Of a stretch of DNA of 64,000 nucleotides, positions 3,991-14,302 are shown one piece after another. Under the pieces are notes generated by a model, which did not search any database, was not told where the DNA came from, and saw nothing but the letters and a program-made list of their open reading frames with translations. Origin of the DNA: Pseudolabrys sp. FHR47 (lineage in GTDB: Bacteria > Pseudomonadota > Alphaproteobacteria > Rhizobiales > Xanthobacteraceae). A program made the translations under genes and the position numbers. Location of the stretch: positions 62,001 to 126,000 of the forward strand of contig NZ_CP039740.1 in the NCBI RefSeq assembly GCF_005153485.1, written 5' to 3'. Within the stretch, counting starts at the first letter, position 1. The number at the start of each line of letters is the position of its first letter.

Positions 3991-5109
3991 ATGAAAATAA
4001 CTGTCGAACGCGCCGAACTCCTCAAGTCGCTGAGCCACGTCTACCGTGTGGTCGAGCGGCGCAATACCATTCCGATCCTGTCCAACGTGCTGATCCGCGC
4101 CGACAACGGCCAGCTCAGCATGAAGGCAACCGATCTCGATCTCGAGGTCACCGACTCGATCGCGGCCGAGGTCGCGCCGGGCGGCGCCACAACCGTGCCG
4201 GCGCACATGTTCTACGACATCGTGCGCAAGCTGCCGGATGGTTCGCAGATCGTCATCGAAGGTTCCGGCGAACGCGCGGTGCTGACCATCCGTGCCGGAC
4301 GTTCGCGCTTCACGCTGCAGACCTTGCCCGAGAGCGACTTCCCCGATCTCGCCGCCGGCGAGATGAGCCACTCGTTCAAGGTGCCGGCCGCCGACTTCAA
4401 ACGCCTCATCGACAAGACGCAGTTCGCGATCTCGACCGAAGAGACGCGCTATTACCTCAACGGCATCTATCTGCACGCCGCCGGCTCGGCCAAGACCGCG
4501 ACCTTGCGCGCGGTGGCGACCGACGGCCATCGGCTGGCGCAGGTCGAACTGCCGCTGCCGGAAGGCGCCGCCGGCATGCCGGGCATCATCATCCCACGCA
4601 AGACCGTCGCCGAAGTTCAGCGCCTGATCGAAACCGGCGAAGGCGACATCGCCATCGAACTGTCGTCCGGCAAAATCCGCTTCTCGATCGGCAACGTGAC
4701 GCTGATCTCCAAGCTGATCGACGGCACCTTCCCGGACTATGGCCGGGTCATCCCGGTCAATAATGACAAGAGCCTCGTCGTCGACAAGAAGGATTTCGAA
4801 GCCGCGGTCGATCGCGTCTCCACCGTATCCAGCGAACGCGGCCGCGCCGTGAAGCTGTCGATCAGCGGCGGACGGCTGGTCCTGTCGGTGACCAACCCGG
4901 ATTCCGGCAGCGCCACTGAAGAGCTTGAGGTCGATTACGAATCCGATCCGCTCGATATCGGCTTCAATTCGCGCTACCTGCTCGACATCGCCGCGCAGAT
5001 CGAGGGCGAGGTCGCGGTGCTCAAGCTCGCCGATCCGGGCTCGCCGACGCTGATCCAGGACAAGGACGCCAAAGGCGCGCTCTATGTCCTGATGCCGATG
5101 CGGGTGTAG
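3991..5109 (+). CDS. dnaN: DNA polymerase III sliding clamp, beta subunit
   Basis: A 372-residue protein starting MKITVERAELLKSL, the standard N-terminus of alphaproteobacterial clamps. The head-to-tail dimer encircles DNA and tethers polymerase III and other enzymes. Typical signatures include RRNTIPILSNVLIRA in domain 1, ATDGHRLAQVELPLP in domain 2, and the C-terminal YVLMPMRV, where the MPMR segment lines the hydrophobic peptide-binding pocket. The frame is open 8 codons further upstream, but ATG 3991 matches the family start. The gene is followed at once by the left inverted repeat of the DUF559 cassette. Confidence 0.98.
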   Translation: MKITVERAELLKSLSHVYRVVERRNTIPILSNVLIRADNGQLSMKATDLDLEVTDSIAAEVAPGGATTVPAHMFYDIVRKLPDGSQIVIEGSGERAVLTIRAGRSRFTLQTLPESDFPDLAAGEMSHSFKVPAADFKRLIDKTQFAISTEETRYYLNGIYLHAAGSAKTATLRAVATDGHRLAQVELPLPEGAAGMPGIIIPRKTVAEVQRLIETGEGDIAIELSSGKIRFSIGNVTLISKLIDGTFPDYGRVIPVNNDKSLVVDKKDFEAAVDRVSTVSSERGRAVKLSISGGRLVLSVTNPDSGSATEELEVDYESDPLDIGFNSRYLLDIAAQIEGEVAVLKLADPGSPTLIQDKDAKGALYVLMPMRV

Positions 5110-5137: not shown

Positions 5138-5191
5138 ACCCTCTCCCCTTGCGGGAGAGGGTGGCGCGCGGAGCGCGCCGGGTGAGGGGTC
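5138..5191. repeat. Left inverted arm of the DUF559 cassette
   Basis: The arm contains two nested palindromes: CCCTCTCC with GGAGAGGG, and GGCGCGC with GCGCGCC. It matches the reverse complement of 5563-5616 at 51 of 54 bases. The first palindrome lies 29 bp after the dnaN stop and may also act as its transcript end. Confidence 0.85.
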
Positions 5192-5192
5192 G

Positions 5193-5564
5193 GTGCCTGC
5201 AGGATTTCACCACCGTCCAATCGCTAAGCAAAATCGCAAATTTGCGAAAGCGATGCGTCACGCTCCGACTGACGCCGAAACGACAATGTGGCGCCTTCTG
5301 CGAGATCGGCGCCTGATCGGCGTCAAGTTCCGCCGTCAAGCGCCTGTCGAAGGTTACATTCTGGACTTTGTTTTCTTTGACCGGAAAATCGTCATTGAGA
5401 TCGACGGAAGCCACCACTTTCAATCGTCTCGTGATGAGGAACGAGATCGTATTCTTCGCGAGCTGGGCTTCCAGGTCGTGCGCTATTGGAATAACGAGGT
5501 CCTTCAAACGCCCAACGCCGTGCTCGAAGATATTTTCGCCCGCCTCGCGAATGGCAAGGATTGA
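5193..5564 (+). CDS. DUF559-domain protein, predicted PD-(D/E)XK (Vsr-like) nuclease
   Basis: A 123-residue protein with a GTG start at 5193; an internal ATG at 5253 (MRHAPTDAET) is a possible alternative. DUF559 proteins share the fold of very-short-patch-repair endonucleases. The candidate metal-binding core is Asp58 in ILDFVFFDRK and Glu69/Asp71 in IEIDGSHH, preceded by RLIGVKFRRQ, which is typical of the family. Substrate and physiological role are unknown for most members. The stop codon lies in the right inverted arm and the start abuts the left arm, so gene and repeats look like one unit. There is no partner methyltransferase nearby, which argues against a simple restriction system. 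Confidence 0.85.
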   Translation: MPAGFHHRPIAKQNRKFAKAMRHAPTDAETTMWRLLRDRRLIGVKFRRQAPVEGYILDFVFFDRKIVIEIDGSHHFQSSRDEERDRILRELGFQVVRYWNNEVLQTPNAVLEDIFARLANGKD

Positions 5565-5616
5565 CCCCTCACCCGGCGCGCTGCGCGCGCCACCCTCTCC
5601 CCCAAGAGGAGAGGGT
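5563..5616. repeat. Right inverted arm of the DUF559 cassette
   Basis: Begins GACCCCTCACCCGGCGCGCT and ends GGAGAGGGT. It differs from the reverse complement of the left arm at three positions. Its first bases complete the DUF559 stop codon. The arm ends 29 bp before the recF start. Confidence 0.85.
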
Positions 5617-5645: not shown

Positions 5646-6791
5646 ATGACCGCCGCCTTTCTCCGACGCCTGTCGCTCACGAATTTCCGCAGCTACCACG
5701 CGGCGAAGCTCGAACTCGACCGTGCCGGACCGGTGGTGCTGACCGGCCCAAACGGCGCCGGCAAGACCAACCTCCTCGAAGCGATCTCGTTGCTGGCGCC
5801 GGGCCGTGGACTCCACCGTGCCACGCTCGACGAACTCGCTTTCACCGAGGGCGACGGCGGCTGGGCCGTGTCGACGGAAATCGAAGGCATGCTGGGCCTT
5901 GCCACGCTCGGCACCGGCATCGAGCCGCCGGCGGGCGAGGAGATCACCAATTCGCGTAAATGCCGAATCGACCGCGAGAAGGTCGCGTCGGCCGCCGCCT
6001 TCGCCGACCATCTGCGCATTATCTGGCTGACGCCGGCGATGGACCCGCTGTTCGTCGGCCCCGCCGCCGATCGGCGCCGCTTTCTCGATCGCCTCGTGCT
6101 CGCGGTCGATGCGCAGCATTCGAGCCGCGTTTCCGCGCTCGAGCGCTCGCTGCGTTCGCGCAACCGGCTTCTGGAGGACGCGCGCAGCGATCCGCACTGG
6201 CTGGACGCCATCGAGCACGAAACCGCCGAGGTCGCCGTCGCCGTCTCGGCGGCGCGCTACGAGACCGTGAACCGCCTCGCCGGCGCGCTTGAGGCCGCGC
6301 GCGAGGAAGCGCCCGTCTTCGCCATGCCGCGCATCGCGCTCGAAGGCTGGATGGAAAACCAGTGGCCGCTGAGCACAGCCCGCGAGATCGAGGATCGCTA
6401 TCGCGATCTCTTGCGCGAGAGCCGCGCCCAGGACGCCGCCGCCGGCCGCACGCTGGAAGGCCCGCATCGCGCAGACCTCAAGGTCATGCACGCCGGCAAG
6501 GGCATTGCCGCGGCGGATGGCTCGACCGGCGAACAGAAGGCGATGCTCATTCGCCTCATGCTGGCGCATGCGCACCTGATCAAGGACATGACCGGTTATG
6601 CACCGGTGATGCTGCTCGATGAAGTCGTGGCGCATCTCGACCCGTTGCGGCGCGCCGCGCTCTACGACGCGCTCGCGGCGCTCGGCACGCAAGTATGGAT
6701 GACCGGCGCCGATCCGGCCGCCTTTGCCGATATCGCCGACCGCGCCCAATGGTTCGACGTGACGCCGGGCGGCGTGTCAAAGCGCGGCTGA
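5646..6791 (+). CDS. recF: DNA replication and repair protein RecF
   Basis: A 381-residue SMC/ABC-type ATPase that, with RecO and RecR, loads RecA onto gapped DNA at stalled forks. Walker A GPNGAGKTN is at about residues 34-42, the ABC signature lies in STGEQKAMLIRL, and Walker B is VMLLDEVVAHLDP near the C-terminus. All three motifs are intact. The start ATG 5646 (MTAAFLRRLSLTNFRSY) is preferred over TTG 5640. The DUF559 cassette ends 29 bases upstream, so the recF ribosome binding region lies just beyond the right repeat arm, and any transcription from dnaN must cross the cassette. Confidence 0.97.
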   Translation: MTAAFLRRLSLTNFRSYHAAKLELDRAGPVVLTGPNGAGKTNLLEAISLLAPGRGLHRATLDELAFTEGDGGWAVSTEIEGMLGLATLGTGIEPPAGEEITNSRKCRIDREKVASAAAFADHLRIIWLTPAMDPLFVGPAADRRRFLDRLVLAVDAQHSSRVSALERSLRSRNRLLEDARSDPHWLDAIEHETAEVAVAVSAARYETVNRLAGALEAAREEAPVFAMPRIALEGWMENQWPLSTAREIEDRYRDLLRESRAQDAAAGRTLEGPHRADLKVMHAGKGIAAADGSTGEQKAMLIRLMLAHAHLIKDMTGYAPVMLLDEVVAHLDPLRRAALYDALAALGTQVWMTGADPAAFADIADRAQWFDVTPGGVSKRG

Positions 6792-14184: not shown

Positions 14185-14302
14185 CCTCCCCCTGCAAGGG
14201 GGAGGTCGATCCGCGAAGCGGATCGGGTGGGGGTCACGTTTCAATGAAGACGACCCCACCCCGCCGCGCTTCGCGCGGCGACCCTCCCCTTTCAGGGGAG
14301 GG
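14185..14302. repeat. Gene-less inverted repeat pair related to the DUF559 cassette arms
   Basis: Left arm 14185-14235 and right arm 14252-14302 are both 51 bp, inverted, with a 16-bp spacer. Each has the same plan as the DUF559 arms: GACCCC(C)ACCC, then a CCGC/GCGG palindrome, then a CCTCCCC/GGGGAGG palindrome. No gene lies inside. It reads as a short non-autonomous relative. It lies between the glutamine-synthetase-like gene and the Rieske oxygenase gene and may affect their co-transcription. Confidence 0.75.

Follow-up and report, generated by a model that had tools for sequence, protein, structure and literature searches.

What is a small nuclease gene doing between two inverted copies of one repeat, in the space between dnaN and recF? 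The question arises from a 64,000-nucleotide stretch of Pseudolabrys sp. FHR47 (Xanthobacteraceae; contig NZ_CP039740.1, positions 62,001 to 126,000, from a single-contig assembly of 4.52 Mb), hereafter the window, in which a gene for a DUF559 protein is enclosed by two 54-bp arms. An earlier note on this DNA had proposed a compact repeat-plus-nuclease cassette comparable to repetitive extragenic palindromic (REP) sequences and their REP-associated tyrosine transposases (RAYTs). Our analysis strongly supports two parts of that proposal, namely that DUF559 genes and arms belong together, which is close to certain, and that they form a discrete unit. The arms match a known class of repeats with a predicted three-stranded fold. 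As for the remaining part, direct action of the DUF559 protein on its own arms is the best explanation that we can offer, and we hold it to be somewhat better than an even prospect.

Results

A nuclease gene enclosed by matched arms

The whole cassette, arms and gene, spans 479 bp. Alignment confirmed that the arms are inverted, 54 bp each, and identical at 51 of 54 positions; the inverted repeat can be extended to 63 nt at 89% identity, and the arm-against-arm local alignment scores 93, compared with a peak of 31 in 2000 mononucleotide shuffles. The tight fit of gene and arms claimed in the earlier note also holds: a single base separates the left arm, which ends at 5191, from the predicted GTG start at 5193, and the stop codon TGA (5562-5564) runs into the right arm. 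The parts are as follows.

5138..5191, + strand: left arm, a TM-type intrastrand-triplex repeat unit as predicted from inverted-repeat alignment and folding (z -4.1)
5139..5161, + strand: stem hairpin of the left arm, with pyrimidine strand 5139-5147, loop, and purine strand 5153-5161
5163..5179, + strand: variable palindrome of the left arm, its second hairpin
5180..5189, + strand: third strand GGGTGAGGGG in the left arm, which mirrors the purine strand of the stem
5193..5564, + strand: gene for a predicted DUF559 (PF04480) Vsr-like PD-(D/E)XK nuclease of 123 amino acids (aa)
5563..5616, - strand: right arm, an inverted copy of the left repeat unit, whose first two bases finish the stop codon
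5593..5615, - strand: stem hairpin of the right arm

Folded as single-stranded DNA, the arms exceed dinucleotide shuffles in stability on all three strands tried (z -4.1, -5.6, and -5.0). The third strand at 5180..5189 also occupies the position expected of a ribosome-binding site for the GTG start.

Recurrence of arm-flanked DUF559 genes

In the FHR47 genome, PF04480 matches five places. Inverted arms, of more than one type, enclose each of the four standalone DUF559 genes, while the fifth place is a domain within a 401-aa open reading frame (ORF) that is not between arms. We found the same arrangement in 39 relatives and 199 genomes drawn from the phylum. A gene was called standalone if it scored at least 76 against a purpose-built profile, to which three short or broken loci were added (some standalone genes have long open frames), and arms were called where hairpins of a pyrimidine and a purine strand stood on both sides, or where the inverted repeat scored at least 40, within 260 bp of the domain. 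On this basis, arms stood on both sides of 176 of the 212 testable standalone loci, and 209 of 212 had at least one; 9 further loci were too short to test, and 3 named matches were too weak to count. The association that the earlier note had suspected from one locus thus extends to other DUF559 genes, within this genome and far beyond it.

Both-sided flanking was found at 64/68 loci of the genus and order draw, 68/89 of the phylum draw, and 44/55 of the named loci. FHR47 and its 39 relatives contributed 107 places, from which 94 loci were taken and 12 omitted (2 long-ORF, 10 weak fragments), and the 60 named loci partly repeat those of the genus. The phylum draw comprises the best 89 loci of a longer list, and weak members are under-sampled because loci were taken roughly in E-value order. 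Named hosts with both arms include Rhodomicrobium, Caulobacter, Rhodanobacter, Sideroxydans, Gallionella, Nitrosomonas, and deltaproteobacterial and Nitrospirota metagenome-assembled genomes (MAGs); two Solimonas loci have arms on one side only, and the locus of an Anaerolinea MAG has no arms. Judged by eye, triplex-like units flank the DUF559 gene of Neisseria gonorrhoeae (L318) in direct rather than inverted orientation, and units of related design lie near that of Picosynechococcus. The closest named matches to another FHR47 DUF559 protein include Pseudolabrys and Xanthobacteraceae MAGs.

Controls behaved differently. Pseudo-genes shifted inside the same loci had both arms in 2 of 412 cases, and pseudo-genes placed along the window in 1 of 631, which was the cassette itself. 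A conserved ORF of about 400 aa with a C-terminal DUF559-like domain, present in FHR47 (C1:1764466, L033) and in relatives (L057-L061, L109-L121), was never flanked on both sides (0 of 19 loci in the genus draw; 1 one-sided).

The DUF559 protein

The earlier note had described DUF559 proteins as Vsr-like PD-(D/E)XK nucleases, and the window protein bears this out as a prediction. It matches PF04480 with 124 bits (E 2.5e-36; cut-off 20.6), and Foldseek comparison with PDB structures points to a Vsr-like fold, with the best matches to PD-(D/E)XK folds; matches to unrelated toxin chains (E 0.8-0.95) were disregarded as due to chance. Residues E29, D58, D71, and H75, invariant in an alignment of 18 DUF559 proteins, would be the catalytic ones. 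The only Pfam matches were DUF559 and MTES_1575, with no HUH tyrosine transposase among them. The protein does not qualify as a Vsr mismatch endonuclease proper (TIGR00632, 21.9 bits, below the cut-off of 97.85), and PADLOC returned only weak matches. At one site, the DUF559 gene is under strong purifying selection.

The arm as a triplex-type repeat

Arms share a layout of a pyrimidine strand (a), a loop, its complement (a'), a spacer that is often a variable palindrome, and a purine strand (a''). Strand a'' mirrors a', with A or T, and rarely C or G, facing A. The triplets G.GC, A.AT, and T.AT are those of the purine-motif (reverse-Hoogsteen) triplex. The mirror-triplet rule is obeyed perfectly by 250 of 311 unique arms, compared with a mean of 89 (maximum 107) when stems were permuted among arms of equal length, and 108 when the strand was read directly. 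In the 262 fitting arms, with the register set by G positions only, the bases facing A were A 267, T 211, C 12, and G 7. Furthermore, the third strand changes along with the stem across types, as where stem CCTTCTCCC occurs with third strand GGATGAGGG. In the left arm of the window, all 9 of 9 triplets are compatible with the three permitted kinds (by eye).

This design matches the intrastrand-triplex repeats called TM/TMECO. For TMECO, the available text of Holder et al. 2015 (PMC4666352) reports a triplex within one strand that is stable in vitro. The window arms depart from the TMECO consensus, which has a 3-nt second loop, in having 18 nt between strands, 17 of them palindrome; short-loop arm types occur in other cassettes. 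The start codon lies -3 to 15 nt from the left third strand in 84 of 131 cassettes. The REP tags GTAG and CGTC are on neither strand of the left arm. Three Rfam matches all fell far under gathering scores, and literature matches listed for the stem string look irrelevant by title.

Matched arms and dispersed copies

Left and right arms of a cassette resemble each other more than expected, differing by 1.56 edits vs. 4.21 when permuted (131 cassettes), and by 1.30 vs. 3.69 when permuted within genomes. Protein and arm also covary (Mantel r 0.26, p 0.001; r 0.21 for pairs below 70% identity). Hairpins of the CCCTCTCC type have a median of 12 copies in 59 DUF559-positive genomes (best E <1e-20, a chosen cut) vs. 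0 in 140 others. Shared ancestry is only partly corrected in these statistics, and nearest to a correction is the within-family permutation of this copy difference (p 0.0002). Genomes with DUF559 are usually rich in dispersed copies, mostly of their own cassette's arm type. Among 42 genomes with typed cassettes, each of the four arm types was more abundant where a cassette of the same type was present than where there were other types only (medians 30.5/2, 123/0, 29.5/2.5, and 30/1). The earlier note had treated arms around many unrelated genes, without any link to DUF559, as evidence against a mobile unit. Arms are indeed often found away from DUF559, including many of the 116 arm-type hairpins found by pattern in the FHR47 genome, but most sampled DUF559 genes lie inside arms, and arm abundance tracks DUF559 across genomes.

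Many dispersed copies are paired. Of the 78 distinct hairpins listed among the 116, 56 form doublets with a spacing of 84-127 bp. The 14 doublets that we read have loops of 18-26 nt between their two units, which in most cases differ in subtype; loops such as those of L007, L011, L017, L021, L024, L028, and L303 have conserved ends (GTC..GAC, GTTA..TCACTTGC) and variable middles. Pairing of unlike types is likewise described for E. coli (Escherichia coli) TMECO in the available text of Holder et al. (PMC4666352). The window holds one example, whose two units differ in arm type.

14185..14302, strand not assigned: gene-less doublet of two inverted triplex-type units, a related dispersed element with other arm types

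A separate observation concerns G130, a genome of the same family with 23 repeat copies, in which DUF559 is a short fragment with a stop codon.

Mobility and the dnaN-recF site

In three groups of loci (L030/L048/L053, L032/L078, and L041/L077), the DNA that the cassettes have in common extends from one arm to the other, give or take about 15 bp, and none of the flanking sequence compared is shared. At three sites, many relatives are without a cassette and some keep one hairpin, as seen in 30 loci at each of them (at the L030 site, both flanks were available for 29). The single hairpins would be deletion scars. At the same intergenic sites in relatives (L162, L174, L175, L281, L292, and L296), there is another dispersed inverted element (GTCATTCCGGG...), which sometimes adjoins a single leftover hairpin. 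We found no phage match; 37 records of a plasmid collection match, all below 60% identity and some of them chromosome-sized.

In the window, the cassette lies between genes and is not part of a target gene's intron or intein. Upstream is dnaN (3991-5109), and downstream is an ORF (5646-6791) that matches the SMC_N/AAA profiles and that we call recF because of its position and length. The cassette is present at this site in 6 of 31 genus genomes examined (from 43, with ten of the 31 covered on the dnaN side only; those ten have no DUF559 in the ~1.5 kb examined). The dnaN-recF cassettes form one clade (support 0.96), which takes in two cassettes that occupy this site in another genus, and they are scattered on the dnaN+recF tree. 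The single clade and the scatter lead us to reject a recent insertion here. Another apparent insertion, of ~1.5 kb, lies between dnaN and recF in the genus members G244, G239, G245, G013, G012, and G253, with no DUF559 in the part examined.

Discussion

We read the 479-bp unit as most like a REP/RAYT system, yet with triplex-forming repeats and an unrelated enzyme, a Vsr-like PD-(D/E)XK nuclease. It may be an autonomous cassette in which a nuclease gene lies between two inverted, cognate, triplex-forming units. An arm that becomes single-stranded, as may happen on the lagging-strand template, could form a hairpin from its pyrimidine and purine strands, onto which the third strand, also purine, could fold back by reverse-Hoogsteen pairing; such a triplex would then form in vivo. 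The DUF559 protein would recognize the two facing arms in this folded form and nick or cut there, and repair or re-insertion after the cut, amounting to a form of transposition chemistry, would spread or restore the unit. Arms and doublets that lack the gene could be spread in trans. Finally, the two outer hairpins, being palindromic, also count as direct repeats of each other; recombination between them would delete the cassette and leave one hairpin.

Several results weigh against this explanation. Among the standalone genes, 36 of 212 are without arms on both sides (33 one-sided, 3 with none). Three weak matches in the named set, probably broken or distant copies, comprise two with both arms and one one-sided, and they are not a clean negative control because two of the three have both arms. 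When permuted within genomes, the correlation of protein with arm does not reach significance (rho -0.24, p 0.11). At least 5 copies are present in 11 of 140 genomes without a strong DUF559 match, where a single type can reach 82 copies, and fewer than 5 copies of each of four types are present in 10 of 59 DUF559-positive genomes. Doublets are not simple deletion copies of the cassette, because their loops vary and their units are unlike. The available text of Holder et al. (PMC4666352) reports that footprinting with dimethyl sulfate did not support a stable triplex in vivo. Lastly, no target duplication can be read at the three sites, where flanks are too diverged, and the dnaN-recF cassette is best read as an old, mainly vertical insertion whose scatter would reflect repeated loss; therefore, this locus alone shows no recent movement. 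Vertical descent, which the earlier note had set against mobility, thus probably does apply at dnaN-recF, but the cassette is in only 6 of 31 genomes there, and the same unit occurs elsewhere without shared flanks. Similarly, the comparison of sites in relatives did turn up places without a cassette, but not the target duplications that the note had suggested looking for.

Other explanations need to be considered alongside direct action on the arms. The nuclease could behave like a homing enzyme, cutting alleles or sites that carry a single hairpin or repeat, with break repair copying the cassette in and the arms serving as homology and target. We consider this unlikely: single hairpins are equally explicable as deletion scars, cassettes occupy diverse intergenic sites rather than one conserved target, and gene-less doublets are left without explanation. 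The Vsr-like homing endonuclease I-Bth0305I is, by its PDB entry, the protein of a mobile intron, whereas the window cassette is free-standing and intergenic. Alternatively, DUF559 could be cargo that profits from a ride between two repeats spread by another host or mobile enzyme. Repeat-rich genomes without a strong DUF559 match speak for such a passenger (e.g., G197 with 82 copies, G093 with 63, and G172 with 31). Yet arm type matches between cassette and dispersed copies, and the close gene-sized intervals among the 78 listed hairpins (403, 445, and 454 bp) are DUF559 cassettes only, three gaps of 1.0-1.2 kb being unread; we think this quite improbable.

We put lower still the probability that DUF559 is a structure-specific nuclease that resolves triplex or hairpin blocks and is kept where repeats abound, with arms that only regulate or insulate the gene. 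The Vsr-like fold, the purifying selection at one site, and the nearness of start codons to the left third strand would all suit a role in repair or maintenance, but they would leave without explanation both the matching of left and right arms and a discrete unit that turns up at different sites with no flanks in common. That GC-rich intergenic repeats or ordinary terminators flank the gene by accident has virtually no probability, even though such repeats are common in this genome, given the shifted and window pseudo-genes and the long-ORF control.

Direct action of DUF559 on its arms would connect two previously separate subjects. To our knowledge, no means of spreading is known for the triplex-forming repeats of bacteria, including those of E. 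coli, and the predicted nucleases of the widespread DUF559 family mostly have no assigned role. A link between them gives each a candidate function. If the explanation is right, non-B DNA would serve as a mobile element's recognition signal, and a REP-like repeat system would be driven by a class of enzyme distinct from HUH. The organization is like that of REPtrons; the enzyme and the DNA structure are different. In the available text on REP/RAYT systems (PMC3733652, PMC8266576), a nuclease gene likewise lies between inverted palindromes, with dispersed gene-less copies, doublets, and a cognate relation. RAYTs, however, are HUH tyrosine enzymes with tagged stem-loops, in contrast to a PD-(D/E)XK enzyme with an untagged triplex-type repeat.

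The earlier note knew of no described system with DUF559 in such a role. We found no DUF559-repeat link in the literature as judged by title, with subscription papers and preprints outside coverage. The arm itself, which the note did not recognize as such, is a known triplex-forming repeat. As far as the available text of Holder et al. (PMC4666352) goes, TM/TMECO repeats (earlier PIT; related to BoxC) share with our arms a stem and mirror third strand, and a dispersed, intergenic occurrence singly or as inverted pairs of unlike types. In the same text, unlike here, no mobility functions are noted among the genes around the E. coli repeats, the flanking genes have no common function, and a term search finds neither "endonuclease" nor "DUF." Our arms differ from TMECO in often having a variable hairpin between strands and in flanking a nuclease gene. 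On the protein side, the DUF559/YcjD/NGO0050 group shares family and fold with the window protein, and the available text of PMC1189080 describes no repeat association for it. Caulobacter VsrA is also a DUF559 protein, with nuclease-like effects in vivo and a DNA damage response when a methyltransferase is absent; no repeat association is described, and "palindrom" is absent, in the available text of PMC12907096.

More broadly, DUF559 proteins could be the missing enzymes of bacterial intrastrand-triplex repeats, an idea to which we give slightly less than an even chance. They would then form an independent class of repeat-spreading systems, with a PD-(D/E)XK nuclease and a three-stranded fold as its substrate, that extends from Pseudomonadota to Nitrospirota and possibly to cyanobacteria, with E. 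coli YcjD and TMECO as a decayed or tamed remnant. The ycjD gene (b1289) encodes a DUF559 protein (167 bits) that is 41% identical to the window protein over 102 residues, and YcjD is predicted to be a PD-(D/E)XK nuclease, matched to Vsr by profile, in the available text of PMC1189080. In MG1655, the interval between ycjD and fabI contains number 9 of the TMECO repeats tabulated by Holder et al., at a distance of 167 bp from ycjD. In strain KE47, ycjD is directly followed by a TM-like unit, and a different palindrome lies upstream (by eye).
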